Position numbers and translations under genes: made by a program. The notes under the pieces were generated by a model that was not told the DNA's origin, made no database searches, and saw only the letters and a program-made list of their open reading frames with translations. This document shows, one piece after another, positions 37,167 through 43,633 of a DNA stretch of 64,000 bases. The DNA comes from an uncultured Saprospiraceae bacterium (GTDB lineage Bacteria; Bacteroidota; Bacteroidia; Chitinophagales; Saprospiraceae), in contig CALLPI010000004.1 in the NCBI GenBank assembly GCA_938015595.1, forward strand, positions 248,001 to 312,000, given 5' to 3'. Each line of letters begins with the position of its first letter. Positions within the stretch are counted from its first letter, which is position 1.

Positions 37167-38630
37167 ATGAATAAATACTGTACGCTCATTCTCCTACTGT
37201 TTTTTAGCCTGGCATCTGGCCTGCTCGTAGCCCAAACGCCTCAGGCCTTCAGCTACCAGGCAGTAGCTACTGACAGCCGAGGCAAGGAGCTCGTCAATCG
37301 CAGCATCGGCATACGAGCCAGTATCCTGCGCAGCAGCCCTTCTGGTCAGGCAGTGTGGGTAGAAACACACCAGGTTGTTACCGATGACTTCGGTCTTTTT
37401 ACTATTCCTGTGGGGCAAGGCGCACCTCAACCTGGTGCCAGCCCCAACTTTAGCGCGATTGACTGGAGTGCAGGACCTTATTTTCTGCGTATTGACATGG
37501 ACGCTGACGGCGGCAGCAATTATGCTTTTGTAGGCGCTACCCAGTTGCTATCCGTGCCTTATGCCTTGTACAGCGAAAATGCTGCCAAGGCCGCCCGCGC
37601 TGAACAAGCCGATGGCGCCCTCTTGGCTCAGCGCGCTACCCTGGCCGACAGTGCCGCCGTAGCCCAGCAGGCTGTACGCGCCGCTTTAGCCGACAGTGCC
37701 GCCTTGGCCCAATTGGCCCGACGTAGCCTCCTGGCTGATAGTGCCACCTCTAGCGCTTTGGCGGCCCACGCCCTGCTGGCTGACAGTACCTCCATTTCTG
37801 CCCGTGCGCTCCGCTCTACATTGGCCGACAGCGCCTTTGTTGCTGCGTTGGCGCATCGCGCCCTGTATGCCGACTATGCAGACTCTACCCGCATGGCGGC
37901 ACAAGCCATGCAGGCAAATGGCGCCTTGGTAGCCGGATACGCTGATGTGGCTGGTACGGCCGCTACTACCAACTTTGCCAATAGTGCTGGCACAGCCCAG
38001 TACGCCCAGTTTGCTGGCTCGGCCGTAGATGACTTCGACCGCGACCCGGCCAACGAATTGCAAACCCTATCCATCAATCGTGATACCATCCGCATTTCCA
38101 ATGGTAATGTTATAGCCCTCACTTCCGTCAGCCCCTTCCATGCCCCGGGCGCTACCCTTGACTTTCCCGAAGGCACTGATCACGCTTTTTTTCTCTACAT
38201 CTTCAACAGTTACACCGTGCCTGCCGGGAGAAATTTTTACATCACTGCCGCCCAGAGCGAAATTCGTCTGCCCAATGTGGGTAATGCTCTGGGCCGGCAC
38301 TTCACCACCCCTTCGCTGCCGTTGATACCTGCTGGCACAACTGTGTCGAACTGCCGCTGCACCGGATTTCTGGTCAACCAGACTTCACAGATCAATCCAG
38401 TAGTAATTGTGCTCCAGCCCAATAATGGCAACTCCTACCAAGTGCCCAACGGCCGCTATCTCGTCATTAAAAGCGGCGTGACAGCCGCTATGCCCATCTC
38501 CTTTGACGGTACGGTCATTGACTTTTTCAGTAGTACTATCAAGGCCATGATTGCTCCCTCTGGCGTGACGCTGCGCAACCCCAATACAGAAGAGATCATC
38601 CTGACTGGCTATTTGAAAAACAACCAATGA
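37167..38630 (+). CDS. Secreted fibre-like protein with 15-residue repeats
   Basis: This is a 487-residue protein with signal peptide (cleavage after LVAQ). Residues 24-140 form the Bacteroidota domain that begins PQAFSYQAVATDSRG and includes GPYFLRIDMDADGGSNY and LLSVPYALYS, often seen at the base of tail-fibre- or collagen-like proteins. Residues 159-248 carry six units of exactly 15 residues, each starting with LADS or a variant. A Gly/Ala-rich stretch follows to residue 285, and then a beta-rich C-terminal head (about residues 295-487). The repeats suggest a trimeric right-handed coiled-coil stalk. The stop overlaps the next start (ATGA at 38627), so the two are coupled. The function is probably an adhesin or surface fibre (inference). 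Confidence 0.7.
   Translation: MNKYCTLILLLFFSLASGLLVAQTPQAFSYQAVATDSRGKELVNRSIGIRASILRSSPSGQAVWVETHQVVTDDFGLFTIPVGQGAPQPGASPNFSAIDWSAGPYFLRIDMDADGGSNYAFVGATQLLSVPYALYSENAAKAARAEQADGALLAQRATLADSAAVAQQAVRAALADSAALAQLARRSLLADSATSSALAAHALLADSTSISARALRSTLADSAFVAALAHRALYADYADSTRMAAQAMQANGALVAGYADVAGTAATTNFANSAGTAQYAQFAGSAVDDFDRDPANELQTLSINRDTIRISNGNVIALTSVSPFHAPGATLDFPEGTDHAFFLYIFNSYTVPAGRNFYITAAQSEIRLPNVGNALGRHFTTPSLPLIPAGTTVSNCRCTGFLVNQTSQINPVVIVLQPNNGNSYQVPNGRYLVIKSGVTAAMPISFDGTVIDFFSSTIKAMIAPSGVTLRNPNTEEIILTGYLKNNQ
37641..37865 (+). repeat. Five exact 45-bp-period protein repeats (15 residues, LADS motif)
   Basis: LADS occurs at residues 159, 174, 189, 204 and 219 of the fibre-like protein, a period of exactly 15. 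A diverged sixth unit (YADYADS) starts at residue 234. Each unit has Ala at several fixed positions. The DNA varies between units at third positions, so selection on the protein is likely. Confidence 0.85.
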
Positions 38631-39862
38631 ATCTGGCCATGCGCAACTTGTCTGCCATACGATGCGGGCTGCTATTGGCCGGAGCACTGCTCTGCCAGGC
38701 TGCCCTGTACAGCCAGGGTATTCGCAGAGGGGTGGTTTGCAGCACTGGTACTTCGGGTGCCAATACGGCTGGATACCGCCTGTATGCCACTGCCGCTCAG
38801 CCACCTAATGCCGGCACAGTAGGGAATACTGCCTATTTTCTACGACAGGGCTTCCAGCAGCCTACTACTTGTGCAGGTGCACCGCAAGCTCGATTTGAGG
38901 TGCTGCCTCAAGGTTCGGACACTTGCGGAGGCGCCTACGTATTTCGATACTTGGATACGCCCGACCCAGAAACCCGCATATTTTGGACTTTCGGGCTGGG
39001 GGCGCGTCCAGAAGCCTCTTATGAACTGTTGCCGCCCGAAGTCAGCTACTTGGCGCCAGGGCTGAAATACGTTATCCTGGAGGTGCTCACTGACGAGTGC
39101 CGTAGCATAGATACTCTGGAGCTGAACGTGCCGGTCATACCACTGAGTGCTGTCGCTAACGTCAGCGATCTATGGTGCCGTGAGGAGGAAGATGGTGGTA
39201 TCAGTTTGTTCATTCAAAATGGTACAATGCCTTATGCCGTGACTTGGTCCGACGGGCAAACTGGCCCAGAGATTGGTGGTCTGGCCCCCGGCACATATAC
39301 CTATCGCATTGCCGATGCCAACAACTGCATTCTCACCGGCGATGCCATTGTGCAAAGCCCCGATAGCCTGCGCGCCGATACGCTGCTGCGTGCCGAAAGC
39401 TGCAATGGTACTCTCGACGGTGCCATTGCGCTGAATATAAGTGGCGGTACGGCGCCCTATGCTTACCGATGGAGTGACGGCACTACAGCCCCGAATCTGG
39501 TCAACCTGACCAAAGGCCGCTACGCCGTTACAGTGAGCGACGACAATGACTGCCAACTCTTCCTCAATTTTGAGGTTGGCCGGCTTTGCGATGGCTTGGT
39601 GTTTTACGATGTGTTCAGCCCTAACGGTGATGGTCGCAATGACCTGTGGATCATTGACAGCATTGAGCGTTTTCCCGACAATCAGCTCAGTGTTTATGAC
39701 CGATGGGGGCTGCTGGTGTTTCAGGCCCGAGGCTATGCCAACACCTGGGATGGCCGCCGCAGCGATGGGGCAGAGTTGCCTGTTGGGGTGTATTTCTACA
39801 CCCTGCACCTGGGCGATCCGGCTAATACGCTACTCAAAGGCACTGTGACCATACTGCGATGA
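38627..39862 (+). CDS. T9SS type-B cargo: SprB-like repeats with gliding-motility-type C-terminal domain
   Basis: This is a 411-residue secreted protein. The signal peptide ends near LYSQG. There is a region of about 100 residues (WTFGLGARPEASYELL, typical of PKD-like folds), then two SprB-type repeats: GTMPYAVTWSDGQTG with GTYTYRIADANNC, and GTAPYAYRWSDGTTA with GRYAVTVSDDNDC. The end is the CHU_C/T9SS type-B sorting domain: VFSPNGDGRNDLW, LSVYDRWGLLVFQ, NTWDGR, LPVGVYFYTLHL and KGTVTILR. It should be exported by T9SS and depends on a PorP/SprF protein, which is encoded right downstream. Translation is coupled to the fibre-like gene. Confidence 0.9.
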   Translation: MNLAMRNLSAIRCGLLLAGALLCQAALYSQGIRRGVVCSTGTSGANTAGYRLYATAAQPPNAGTVGNTAYFLRQGFQQPTTCAGAPQARFEVLPQGSDTCGGAYVFRYLDTPDPETRIFWTFGLGARPEASYELLPPEVSYLAPGLKYVILEVLTDECRSIDTLELNVPVIPLSAVANVSDLWCREEEDGGISLFIQNGTMPYAVTWSDGQTGPEIGGLAPGTYTYRIADANNCILTGDAIVQSPDSLRADTLLRAESCNGTLDGAIALNISGGTAPYAYRWSDGTTAPNLVNLTKGRYAVTVSDDNDCQLFLNFEVGRLCDGLVFYDVFSPNGDGRNDLWIIDSIERFPDNQLSVYDRWGLLVFQARGYANTWDGRRSDGAELPVGVYFYTLHLGDPANTLLKGTVTILR

Positions 39863-39930
39863 ACCGCTACCAAATTCATACGAGTGATTGATTTTCAGTA
39901 GAAAGCCATTTTCAAACTATCCGCTGCATC

Positions 39931-41682
39931 ATGAAAAAAATTTACGCCCTTACTTTGCATATTCTGGCACAACACCACCTTTGTACATGGGGGGCGTGCC
40001 TGCTGTGTAGCCTGACGCTGGGCACGGCCTCAGCGCAGCAATATCCGCTGTTTACCAATTATCTGCTCAATCAATACGGCTACAACCCTGCCACTACTGG
40101 CCTGGTAGGCGGTATGCAAGTAAACCTTTACTATCGCAAGCAGTGGACGGGCTTTCCCGATGCGCCGGTGACGCGGTTGGCAGCCTTCCGTACGCGCTTG
40201 CGCCAGGTGCCCTTTGGCTTTGGAGGCTACTTTTTCAATGACGAAGCCGGCGCGTTGCGGCGCAGCGGTGGCTCTGCCCTGCTGTCTTACACCCAGCGTC
40301 TGGGTGAAAAATCAGCCATTTCGGCAGGATTTGCCGGCGGTATGCACCAGTATCGGCTGGTGGATGGTTTTAGCATACGCGACCTCGACGACCCTGTGGT
40401 GTACAATGCGCGGCTGGGTGCTTGGTCGCCCGATTTCAATGCTGGCATCCATGTGCAGGCGGGCGATTTTTACGTGGGGTTTTCCATTCCGCAACTGTTT
40501 TCGCCTCGCTTGCGCCTGGGCGACGGCGAGCGGCTGAGCCGGCTGCAGGCACATTATTACCTGGTGACGGGCTACGACTGGATGCTACATGAGGATTTCC
40601 GCCTGGAGCCTTCTTTCATGCTCAAGATGGTAGAAGGCACACCCCTGCAGGTGGAAGCAGCTCTGCGCGGTATTTTCCTGAATCGCTTTTGGGTAGGCGG
40701 GCTGTATCGCTCGGAAGACGCCATGGCTGTCATGGCTGGTTTTGCAGCTGGGCGCCTTTTCGAGGCAGCTTATAGCTACGACTTTACCACCTCCGGTCTG
40801 CGCCATGTCAGTTCCGGCTCACATGAACTGAGCCTGATATTCAGGTGGGGTGACCCCGCGGATACCGACAAAGATGGCATTGCCGACAAACATGACAGAT
40901 GCCCCGACCGCCCCGGCCCTCAGCGCAACAATGGCTGCCCTGAAGATATCTTTGCCGAAAAAAGTGTCAGCGACCGCGACGGCGACGGTATCCCTGACCA
41001 CCTAGATCTCTGCCCTGACCTGGCCGGTCTGGCTGACCAACAAGGTTGCCCCACCCAGGACCGCGACGGCGATGGCATCCCCGATCACCAGGACGACTGC
41101 CCCGGCATTCCCGGCGTAGCTATAAATAATGGCTGCCCAGTAAACGACCGCGACGGCGATGGCATCATTGATATGTTTGATCAGTGCCCTGATGTGCCCG
41201 GCACTTTTGTAAACCGAGGCTGCCCCGAAACCGATACCGATAAGGACGGCACACCCGACTCCTCCGATAAATGCCCTAATACCTTTGGCCCGCCCTCCAA
41301 CCAGGGCTGTCCCGTAGTAACGCCCGAAGAAAACCGCATTTTGGAGCTGGCCATGCGCAACCTTTACTTTGAAACCGCACAAGTAGAAATCTGGAAGCAA
41401 TCCTGGCCCTACCTGGAAAAACTGGCCGAGTTGATGAAAAAGCGCTCCGACTGGCGCCTACGCATCATAGGCCACACTGACAACCGAGGCTCAGAGAAAG
41501 CCAACTTCCAGCTATCCAAAGACCGCGCCGAGGCCGTACTCTACTTCCTCTTTGACCGGGGCGTGCGCCGCGAGCAACTCATCATGGAGTACTATGGACA
41601 TACCCGCCCCTTTGCCGATAACAGTACCGAAGCTGGCCGACAACTTAATCGCCGGGTGGAGTTGGAGTTTGTGTTTGACTGA
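39931..41682 (+). CDS. PorP/SprF-type T9SS protein fused to TSP3 repeats and an OmpA domain
   Basis: This is a 583-residue protein. After a signal peptide (cleavage after SASAQ) comes a PorP/SprF barrel (about residues 37-305): FTNYLLNQYGYNPATTG, YYRKQWTGFPDAP, FGFGGYFFNDEAG. Residues 311-460 hold five thrombospondin type 3 units of the form D-x-D-x-D-G-x-x-D...C-P...G-C-P, each able to bind calcium. The C-terminal OmpA domain (from about residue 465) has IGHTDNRG, LSKDRAEAVLYF and LNRRVELEF for peptidoglycan binding. PorP/SprF proteins place type-B cargos on the surface; here the barrel is tied to the wall through its own OmpA domain. It is the third gene after the fibre-like protein and the cargo. 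Confidence 0.88.
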   Translation: MKKIYALTLHILAQHHLCTWGACLLCSLTLGTASAQQYPLFTNYLLNQYGYNPATTGLVGGMQVNLYYRKQWTGFPDAPVTRLAAFRTRLRQVPFGFGGYFFNDEAGALRRSGGSALLSYTQRLGEKSAISAGFAGGMHQYRLVDGFSIRDLDDPVVYNARLGAWSPDFNAGIHVQAGDFYVGFSIPQLFSPRLRLGDGERLSRLQAHYYLVTGYDWMLHEDFRLEPSFMLKMVEGTPLQVEAALRGIFLNRFWVGGLYRSEDAMAVMAGFAAGRLFEAAYSYDFTTSGLRHVSSGSHELSLIFRWGDPADTDKDGIADKHDRCPDRPGPQRNNGCPEDIFAEKSVSDRDGDGIPDHLDLCPDLAGLADQQGCPTQDRDGDGIPDHQDDCPGIPGVAINNGCPVNDRDGDGIIDMFDQCPDVPGTFVNRGCPETDTDKDGTPDSSDKCPNTFGPPSNQGCPVVTPEENRILELAMRNLYFETAQVEIWKQSWPYLEKLAELMKKRSDWRLRIIGHTDNRGSEKANFQLSKDRAEAVLYFLFDRGVRREQLIMEYYGHTRPFADNSTEAGRQLNRRVELEFVFD

Positions 41683-41767
41683 CGGAAATTTGCCTGAATC
41701 AATGCCCACTCAAGTGAGCTTCGCTGGCTAAAAAAGCAGAAATTTGTACGCTCAAAATACTTGGGTT

Positions 41768-43633
41768 ATGTTCTTGCTTTTGATTTGGGCTGCCATTGTA
41801 GGAGGACAAAGGTCAAAACCTGCGCCGGAGGCAACATCGTTTCGTTTTGCTATCGTGTCGGATACGCACATAGGCGGTGCAGCCAGCGCCCAGGAAGATT
41901 TGCGCCGCACAGTAGCTGACATTAATGCCGATACTACTCTGGCGTTTACCATTATCACTGGCGATGTGACGGAACTTGGATGGGATGCCGAACTGGCAGA
42001 AGCCTATGCCTTGCTGAGCCAGTTGCGCCGCCCGTGGTATGTAATTCCCGGCAACCACGATACTAAGTGGTCAGAAAGTGGCAACAACAGCTTTAGGCAA
42101 GTTTTTGGATATGAGCGCTTCTTTTTCCAGTATAAGGACTATGCTTTCATTGGTTGCAGCAGCGGCCCTAACATGCGCATGGCACCCGGCCTGGTGCCAG
42201 CTGAAGATCTGAGGTGGCTGGATTCCGTGCTACAACAACTACCCGCTCATCAACCTTTATTTTTTTTCAATCACTATCCGCTGGATGCTGGTTTGGCCAA
42301 CTGGTACAAAGTGATTGAATTGCTCAAGCGCGTAAATACCCAGGCAGCGTTTTGCGGGCACGGGCACACCAACAAGGCTTTCGATGCCGAAGGCATTCCT
42401 TCGGCCATGTGCCGCTCCAACCTACGCGCCAGAGCCGATACAGGAGCTTATACCGTCGTTACAGTATGGCCTGATGTGCTCACGTTGGCCGAACGCAAGC
42501 CAGGCGGGATTACTGCGGCTCCGTGGCATCGCATACCGCTTGGGCAAAAGGCATACGCTGCAGATACTACTGTCTATGCGCGCCCATCATATGAGGTAAA
42601 CGAGCAGCACCCCCAAGTGCAAAGGGTTTGGCTATTGCAGGACTCTTGCGACATCGGCGCCGGCATTGCCGTGGCTGGTCGCTTGGCGGTTTATGCCAAC
42701 ACTTGCGGCCAGGTGAAAGCTATTGATGCTCAAACCGGAGCATTGCGCTGGCATTTTACAGCCAAAGGCAAAATCTATGCTACGCCGGCTATTGCAGAGG
42801 GCAAAGTTGTATTTGCTTCTGCCGACAGCAACATCTACTGTCTAAACGGCGAAACTGGCGCGCTTGTGTGGATGTTGAAAACCGGCAAAGCTATAGTAGC
42901 TTCTCCTCTCGTGTATGACGGCACAGTATACATTGGCTCTTCAGAAGGCGCCTTTCGGGCCATATCCCTGAAAGATGGACGCATATTGTGGACTTTTAGG
43001 GGGCTCGAGGCCTTTGTGGAAACCCGACCAGTGGCAGATGCCCAAAGGATATACTTTGGCACCTGGGATACCTACTTTTATGCGCTGAATCGCAAAGATG
43101 GCACGCTGGCCTGGAAATGGCACAATGGCAACACCAACCGCCTGTACGCTCCGGCAGCAGTGTGGCCTGTGCTAGCTCATGGCAAGGTTTTCATAGTAGC
43201 GCCTGATCGCTTCGCTACAGCCTTGGACGTGCGCACAGGCCGACAGGTGTGGCGCACGCCCAACAGAGTAGGCCGAGAATCCATAGGACTCTCACAAGAC
43301 GCCCGCACACTCTATGTCAAATCCATGAACGATACAGTGTATGCCTTTGATGCAGTTGGCCATGTCTTGAAACTGCGCGCCAAAGTAATGGCTGGCTATG
43401 GGTATGATATTGCCCCTTCGCCTATGGCAGAGCGCGACGGTACGCTGTACATTCCTACCGATAAAGGGGTCATCATTGCCGTGGACACCCGTAACTGGCA
43501 GATAAAGTGGGCACATAAGCTATGTAATGCACTCATCAACAACATAGTACCCTTAGAACGGGGCGCGGTAATGGGAACGGCTATGGACGGCAAGGTGTTT
43601 TATCTGACACCAGGGCCAGCGCAAAGAGATTAG
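41768..43633 (+). CDS. Calcineurin-like metallophosphoesterase fused to a PQQ-type beta-propeller
   Basis: This is a 621-residue protein with a signal peptide; the ATG at 41768 is chosen over a TTG at 41744. The phosphoesterase part (about residues 20-270) has all metal motifs: SDTH, TGDVTE, GNHD, NHYP and GHGH. From about residue 300 a propeller follows with repeated blades such as GQVKAIDAQTGALRWHF, SNIYCLNGETGALVWML and ATALDVRTGRQVWRT. Similar two-domain proteins occur in Bacteroidota; the substrate is unknown. It lies 85 bases downstream of the PorP-OmpA fusion on the same strand and may or may not share its transcript. Confidence 0.85.
   Translation: MFLLLIWAAIVGGQRSKPAPEATSFRFAIVSDTHIGGAASAQEDLRRTVADINADTTLAFTIITGDVTELGWDAELAEAYALLSQLRRPWYVIPGNHDTKWSESGNNSFRQVFGYERFFFQYKDYAFIGCSSGPNMRMAPGLVPAEDLRWLDSVLQQLPAHQPLFFFNHYPLDAGLANWYKVIELLKRVNTQAAFCGHGHTNKAFDAEGIPSAMCRSNLRARADTGAYTVVTVWPDVLTLAERKPGGITAAPWHRIPLGQKAYAADTTVYARPSYEVNEQHPQVQRVWLLQDSCDIGAGIAVAGRLAVYANTCGQVKAIDAQTGALRWHFTAKGKIYATPAIAEGKVVFASADSNIYCLNGETGALVWMLKTGKAIVASPLVYDGTVYIGSSEGAFRAISLKDGRILWTFRGLEAFVETRPVADAQRIYFGTWDTYFYALNRKDGTLAWKWHNGNTNRLYAPAAVWPVLAHGKVFIVAPDRFATALDVRTGRQVWRTPNRVGRESIGLSQDARTLYVKSMNDTVYAFDAVGHVLKLRAKVMAGYGYDIAPSPMAERDGTLYIPTDKGVIIAVDTRNWQIKWAHKLCNALINNIVPLERGAVMGTAMDGKVFYLTPGPAQRD

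Follow-up and report, generated by a model that had tools for sequence, protein, structure and literature searches.

A recurring three-gene locus of Saprospiraceae predicted to encode a MAT-type surface fiber, a type IX secretion connector, and a PorP/SprF-OmpA carrier

A stretch of 64,000 nucleotides from an uncultured Saprospiraceae bacterium (assembly GCA_938015595.1, contig CALLPI010000004.1, positions 248,001 to 312,000; here called the window) carries three plus-strand genes at 37167-38630, 38627-39862, and 39931-41682 in the open reading frame (ORF) listing of the window. This trio probably encodes a single surface-anchored adhesion fiber composed of a fiber protein like the mosaic adhesive trimer (MAT) fibers of Bdellovibrio (gene 1), a connector that holds the base of the fiber and carries a type-B signal of the type IX secretion system (T9SS) (gene 2), and a PorP-OmpA barrel tied to the cell wall (gene 3). 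Results computed directly carry this reading: the domains of the three proteins, the linkage of their genes, the correlated distances, and the split of signals, with a C-terminal sorting domain (CTD) on the connector and none recognized on the fiber. An earlier note on this DNA had described a fiber-like protein, a sorted cargo, and a carrier; it missed the relationship to MAT fibers that the sequence of gene 1 indicates, and it overlooked the connector domain of gene 2. Because gene 2 carries this MAT-linked domain, the trio is a variant of a fiber-connector pair that occurs throughout the phylum Bacteroidota. The term "MAT connector" was coined in this analysis.

Linkage of the three genes in Saprospiraceae

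The stop codon of gene 1 (TGA, 38628-38630) and the start codon of gene 2 (ATG, 38627-38629) overlap in ATGA, and gene 3 follows gene 2 after a gap of 68 bases, in agreement with the spacing given in the earlier note. Promoter-like and terminator-like sites did not exceed their frequency in shuffled sequence, and the case for cotranscription therefore rests on gene spacing.

A profile of the C-terminal tip domain of gene 1, built from five trios, was searched against 398 genomes of Saprospiraceae, the family of the window. The tip domain was found at 17 loci in 11 of these genomes, and 16 of the 17 carried the full trio with its gene order unchanged (11 of 12 without the five seed loci). The linkage of the three genes is beyond chance. 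The earlier note had treated the genes as a linked unit and had made this view depend on their staying together in relatives, as they do at these loci. Judged by eye, the flanking genes differed among trios, except around the copies in one same-genus pair of genomes (G030 and G172). Among the 16 trios, the connector domain was detected by hidden Markov model (HMM) in 13 and by eye in one more, L039. The frames were read directly to identify gene 2 in L039 and, in another trio (L160), gene 3.

The distances among the proteins of 15 trios were pairwise correlated for the three genes (Mantel r of 0.866, 0.851, and 0.926, each reached in 0 of 5,000 permutations and uncorrected for species history). 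This test left out L166, where gene 2 lies in two ORFs, and L045, which has no trio. In all three genes, each of the two G030 copies has its own counterpart among the two copies of G172, a match that species history alone would not give. As an exception to the pairing of distances, gene 1 of L165_G131c was slightly nearer to that of L042 than to its own tandem sister.

Gene 1 and the connector domain beside MAT genes

The product of gene 1 (487 amino acids) had no Pfam match at an E value of 0.01, and its sole NCBIfam match was NF053851, Bdello_MAT_N (E = 7.4e-10). NF053851 models a Bdellovibrio subfamily with a curated cutoff of 60 bits. Because the 38.9 bits of gene 1 lie under that cutoff, the protein is named MAT-type here and not a member of Bdello_MAT_N. 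The same model matched 66 of 68 relatives of gene 1 at an E value of 0.001. Searching with a profile of Bacteroidota relatives revealed gene 1 as the only gene of its genome with the MAT N-terminal domain (MAT-N).

The predicted architecture of gene 1 agrees with that of MAT fibers. An AlphaFold2 model places an N-terminal helix at residues 3-17, in the signal peptide region, followed by predicted strands at residues 28-127. Mean model confidence (pLDDT) per block was 85-98 for residues 11-130 and 49 for residues 131-140. A MAT-like N-terminal beta-sandwich is assigned to residues ~20-134 (37224-37568; match to profile A1, 165 bits), and the MAT-N HMM covers residues 13-152, so that a beta-rich domain of ~130 amino acids appears to lie directly behind the signal peptide. 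Next comes a predicted helical stalk with six 15-residue repeats (37641-37910), of which five start with LADS and the last with YADY; the modeled helices span residues 134-202 and 210-258. The tip domain, residues 290-487 (38034-38627; alignment A4), is common to the trio fibers and was not modeled confidently (pLDDT mostly <50). A CxC motif at residues 396-398 of the tip (38352-38360) was invariant across five aligned tips. What the earlier note had called a fiber-like protein is thus resolved into three parts: a MAT-like N-terminal domain, a stalk predicted to be helical, and a tip. The remaining parts of the 68 relatives vary, with Pfam matches to collagen in 15, S74 in 13, Lcl_C in 10, FISUMP in 9, and others. 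Such exchangeable C-terminal parts on a common N-terminal domain are a feature of MAT fibers, and the tip of the trio is a further, separate domain.

Gene 2 (411 amino acids) carries at residues 30-79 (38714-38863) a connector domain that ends in RQGFQQP. It was matched by profile A2 with 63.3 bits (G000:C4:286714-286863) and by HMM with 58.7 bits, gene 2 itself being a seed of both profiles, and it was the only connector-profile match in its genome. An N-terminal domain of ~50 amino acids, an adjoining MAT gene, and a T9SS CTD together identify gene 2 as a MAT connector.

Counterparts of the first ~50 residues of the mature gene 2 protein occur in small proteins whose genes adjoin MAT genes, an association documented in three samples. 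The A2 and MAT-N profiles were both searched against 33 genomes, namely those among 100 relatives that were at least 95% complete and split into no more than 100 contigs. Of 38 connector matches, 34 were within 5 kb of a same-strand MAT-N match, with ~0.24 expected from density; without the 12 seeds the count was 22 of 26. A MAT match was present in each of the 21 genomes with a connector match and in three others. The second sample consisted of 80 named loci fetched by MAT-N alone (at least 567 stretches were confirmed, and the best 80 were kept), from records labeled as Bacteroidota groups except for three labeled Chlorobiota. These loci contained 57 connector ORFs among 761 ORFs, and 55 of the 57 directly adjoined a same-strand MAT ORF. 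When the connector came first in the pair, 32 of 35 gaps were between -4 and 63 bases. The third, a sample of 70 genomes from the phylum, yielded 17 connector matches, all no more than 1.5 kb from a same-strand MAT match (13 of 13 outside the genomes already used), whereas the 50 genomes that lacked a MAT match had no connector match. Some MAT matches in this sample were weak (E values of 1e-7 to 1e-4), and some of its genomes may share species with the named loci.

Several further observations were made on connector genes. Three loci with MAT-N genes come from the Chlorobiota-labeled records: L136 has an adjacent connector ORF, L147 has one at a distance of three ORFs, and none was detected in L150. 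At L172:6751-7296, L173:6411-6920, and L174:6965-7441, connector genes stand alone, the surrounding sequence that was fetched lacking any MAT gene. Near one MAT-connector pair, L046:774-5300 encodes a protein of 1508 amino acids with a match of 317 bits to gene 2 and a weak one of 34 bits to gene 3.

Sequence comparison with the PDB set yielded no match for the tip (a single row, a ribosomal protein with an E value of 0.69), for MAT-N (best E value 1.3, an antibody), or for the connector domain (best E value 0.18, an antibody), and no Pfam family matched more than 1 of 20 members of the connector domain. These missing matches prove nothing about fold. In a Foldseek comparison of the MAT-N fold, only a phage neck protein scored below 1e-3 (E = 4.4e-4), the other matches being weaker, and a second structural comparison gave Z scores of up to 7.0 with sandwich domains of GH2 enzymes first. 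No kinship is claimed from these results, because the sandwich may be just a common arrangement. The connector domain was modeled with moderate confidence as four short strands. When the whole connector was compared with Foldseek, immunoglobulin-like DUF3244 domains ranked first and a T9SS CTD ranked 37th.

Sorting signals and the carrier gene

Beyond its connector domain, gene 2 has a SprB repeat at residues 258-287 (39398-39487; PF13573, 49.5 bits, cutoff 28) and a type-B C-terminal sorting domain (39602-39850; PF13585 CHU_C, 90.7 bits, cutoff 27; TIGR04131, 58.7 bits, cutoff 35). All three models score over their cutoffs, as expected from the earlier description of a T9SS type-B cargo with a SprB repeat. 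Gene 2 also has a PorP/SprF gene directly downstream, which is a common, nonuniversal trait of type-B cargo.

Connectors outside the trio are mostly proteins of ~160 amino acids with a type-A T9SS signal. Among 55 of the 57 connector ORFs (set A5; two at locus ends left out), a type-A CTD was recognized in 52 by Pfam and in 52 by NCBIfam. The corresponding set of fibers (A6) comprised 68 of 110 MAT ORFs, taken as the first complete plus-strand ORF of no more than 1,200 amino acids at each locus. A T9SS sorting model was present in 0 of these 68 fibers among the 14 NCBIfam families listed, and no T9SS sorting domain was found among the Pfam families listed (25 of 28). PorP was within two genes of the connector in 4 of 4 type-B cases, all of them trio members, and in 0 of 73 others. 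Two papers describe type-A cargo as using the PorV shuttle and type-B cargo as using its own PorP/SprF protein (PMC12618676, PMC9143113). The occurrence of PorP solely beside type-B connectors fits these known routes.

Distances among connector domains follow those among MAT-N domains when the CTD of the same protein is partialled out (partial r of 0.508, reached in 0 of 2,000 permutations); the value for MAT-N and the CTD was 0.214, reached in 2 of 2,000 (68 pairs in both cases, 9 of 77 having been left out by length limits). The segment sets consisted of gene 1 plus 83 of 107 MAT-N segments (A7) and of gene 2 plus 51 of 57 connector segments (A8). The partial correlation suggests, without proving it, a fit between MAT-N and the connector domain. 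SprA was found in all 20 genomes of the 70-genome sample that had a MAT match, weak matches included, and is present in the genome of the window.

Gene 3 (583 amino acids) consists of a PorP/SprF barrel at residues 34-304 (40030-40842; PF11751, 220.7 bits, cutoff 22.3; TIGR03519, 222.7 bits, cutoff 90.55), a TSP3 linker at residues ~307-470 (40849-41340; PF02412, 57.8 bits, cutoff 25; matched as a block in relatives), and an OmpA-like domain at residues 479-574 (41365-41652; PF00691, 64.8 bits, cutoff 27.2), a putative peptidoglycan binder. It thus combines a PorP/SprF carrier with an OmpA-like domain of the PorE type, as in the earlier proposal of a PorP/SprF neighbor with a putative wall-binding domain. 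The full-length PorE model NF052230 was not reached (44.3 bits versus 600, in the OmpA part only), and no CxC motif occurs anywhere in the gene 3 sequence. The genome has 13 PorP/SprF matches. The open frame of gene 3 has 596 amino acids and the other 12 frames have 311-400, too few to hold such a fusion.

Mechanism, alternatives, and relation to described systems

In the proposed mechanism, the products of genes 1 and 2 would reach the periplasm via Sec, where the N-terminal domain of gene 2 would bind the base domain of the fiber. The type-B CTD of gene 2 would then take the protein through SprA, the T9SS translocon, and dock it on gene 3, its dedicated PorP/SprF carrier. The OmpA-like domain, acting through the TSP3 linker, would grip peptidoglycan and so make the fiber static on the wall. 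One gene 3 protein might thereby do the job that PorP and PorE are believed to share in Porphyromonas (PMC9143113). We infer that the fiber trimerizes, that MAT-N and the connector domain bind each other, that the assembly is anchored to the wall, that the tip has a ligand, and that the fiber is either carried out by the connector or merely held by it. A two-gene design occurs across the phylum, its usual connector being a type-A cargo of ~160 amino acids without an adjoining PorP, and the trio would be a variant of it. A broader proposal, which we advance tentatively and with somewhat less than even confidence, is that throughout Bacteroidota the T9SS displays, and maybe exports in trans, a large class of CTD-less trimeric fibers via small connectors whose N-terminal domain is the missing MAT-N socket. 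Exchange of the connector tail, either type A or type B with PorP-OmpA, would change the anchor, making socket, tip, and anchor the modules of one system, and the window would contain the wall-anchored version.

A number of observations weigh against these proposals. Gene 1 is under the curated NF053851 cutoff. Within Saprospiraceae, L045 (G017:C259), where the contig ends inside the fiber gene, has neither gene 2 nor gene 3 in the ~6 kb downstream. In L166, gene 2 is divided between two ORFs with the connector domain on a separate one, and in L042 and L159 the connector domain was undetected by HMM. More widely, 4 of the 38 connector matches have no MAT match within 5 kb, and 2 of the 57 connector ORFs are three ORFs from the MAT ORF. 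A connector neighbor was detected for only 34 of 79 MAT matches in the 33 genomes and for 42 of 74 MAT ORFs in the named loci; diverged connectors were seen by eye beside further MAT genes (L086, L094, L112, and L115). With more fibers than connectors, some fibers must share a connector in trans or be held by another anchor. Tandem MAT-N arrays of six matches each, at L057 (G061:C107) and L058 (G061:C276), have no detected connector beside them, and a search of 213 MAT frames and 117 connector frames, some of them from overlapping loci, found no frame that fuses MAT-N with the connector domain. Family membership confounds the link with SprA: of the 16 genomes without SprA, 15 belong to a single family. 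The architecture of gene 3 is not fiber specific, because at L168, L169, L170, and L171 PorP-TSP3-OmpA fusions adjoin genes with a type-B CTD in stretches without a MAT gene, and such fusions thus pair with other type-B cargo. The idea that the fusion barrel is specific to fibers is ruled out by these four loci. As a separate observation, G061, a genome of the window organism's order, has a connector elsewhere, at L068.

It is unlikely that gene 2 is an independent T9SS adhesin that is coexpressed with gene 1 but makes no contact with it, gene 1 reaching the surface alone as in Bdellovibrio. To our knowledge, Bdellovibrio has no T9SS. MAT fibers are displayed on the Bdellovibrio surface (PMC10769870), and the many MAT genes without a detected connector neighbor are also in keeping with independence. 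However, in all three samples the connector domain hardly occurs except beside MAT genes (34/38, 55/57, and 17/17), and the typical connector barely exceeds this domain plus the CTD, which leaves little space for a separate adhesin. A slightly less likely alternative is that the connector serves only as an export escort, which binds the fiber in the periplasm, lends its CTD in trans, and is then released, with the fiber relying on some other anchor. The contrast between sorting models in 0 of 68 fibers and 52 of 55 connectors by NCBIfam, and the occurrence of SprA in all 20 genomes with a MAT match, would be expected of an escort. Yet type-B cargo remain bound to PorP-like proteins (PMC9143113), and the type-B connectors come with a PorP-OmpA fusion in 4 of 4 cases, which would be needless for a transient escort.

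The earlier note had allowed for either adhesion or motility. Gene 2 would in the latter case be a mobile adhesin like SprB, with gene 3 as its carrier in a gliding-motility unit, and the type-B CTD, the SprB repeat, and the PorP/SprF neighbor are compatible with this. However, the twin-cysteine CxC motif in the C-terminal tail of SprF joins it to the gliding track and is required for gliding in Flavobacterium johnsoniae (PMC12635249); gene 3 lacks the motif and has an OmpA domain instead. Type-B sets of F. johnsoniae that include a PorE-like gene are thought to be static (PMC12618676). Because gene 3 has no twin cysteines, the trio is read as a unit of static adhesion; adhesion is retained from the earlier suggestion, and motility is very improbable.

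The surface-anchored adhesion fiber proposed for the trio resembles several described systems in part. Like gene 1, the MAT fibers of Bdellovibrio bacteriovorus have a signal peptide, a beta-rich N-terminal domain of ~130 amino acids, a stalk, and exchangeable C-terminal tips (Caulton et al. 2024, PMC10769870). Unlike them, gene 1 is below the NF053851 cutoff, belongs to a Bacteroidota branch, and is linked to a T9SS-exported connector. A type-B CTD gene followed by a PorP/SprF gene is also the arrangement of SprB-SprF and Fjoh_3952-Fjoh_3951, and the PorP/SprF carrier is required for secretion of type-B cargo and anchors it (PMC12618676, PMC9143113). The trio differs from such pairs in having a preceding CTD-less fiber gene, a MAT-linked connector domain, and a carrier fused to TSP3-OmpA. 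The PorE-PorP-PG1035 complex of Porphyromonas gingivalis likewise joins a type-B cargo, a PorP barrel, and an OmpA-like peptidoglycan-binding domain (PMC9143113), but gene 3 has barrel and OmpA in one polypeptide and does not match the full PorE model, and the trio adds a fiber.

The earlier note had considered the unit undescribed. Pairing of type-B cargo with PorP/SprF was already known (PMC12618676, PMC9143113), as were MAT fibers, and the PorP-TSP3-OmpA fusion is not unique to the trio. The link between MAT fibers and a T9SS connector appears to be new, as does the three-gene form: among the matches listed in a literature search that covered few subscription papers and no bioRxiv preprints, there was no published link between MAT fibers and the T9SS, no PorP/SprF-OmpA fusion, and no three-gene form.

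According to the paper that gave MAT fibers their name, the Bdellovibrio surface element holding the N-terminal domain at the fiber base is still to be found (PMC10769870). A domain encoded nearly exclusively next to MAT genes is a concrete candidate in Bacteroidota. Neighbors of Bdellovibrio MAT genes were sought via 14 control genomes, none of which had an NF053851 match. If the proposal is correct, T9SS display could be predicted from a protein's partner and not only from its own signal, and the surface proteome predicted for these bacteria would gain many fiber proteins without a recognized CTD. The trio would further illustrate how one kind of anchor, a type-A signal, can give way to another, a barrel fixed to the wall.

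The next gene downstream, gene 4 (41744-43633), was considered as a fourth member and rejected, since downstream neighbors vary among trios. It encodes a calcineurin-like phosphoesterase joined to a beta-propeller of the PQQ/BamB type, and it was not seen next to the trios of relatives.

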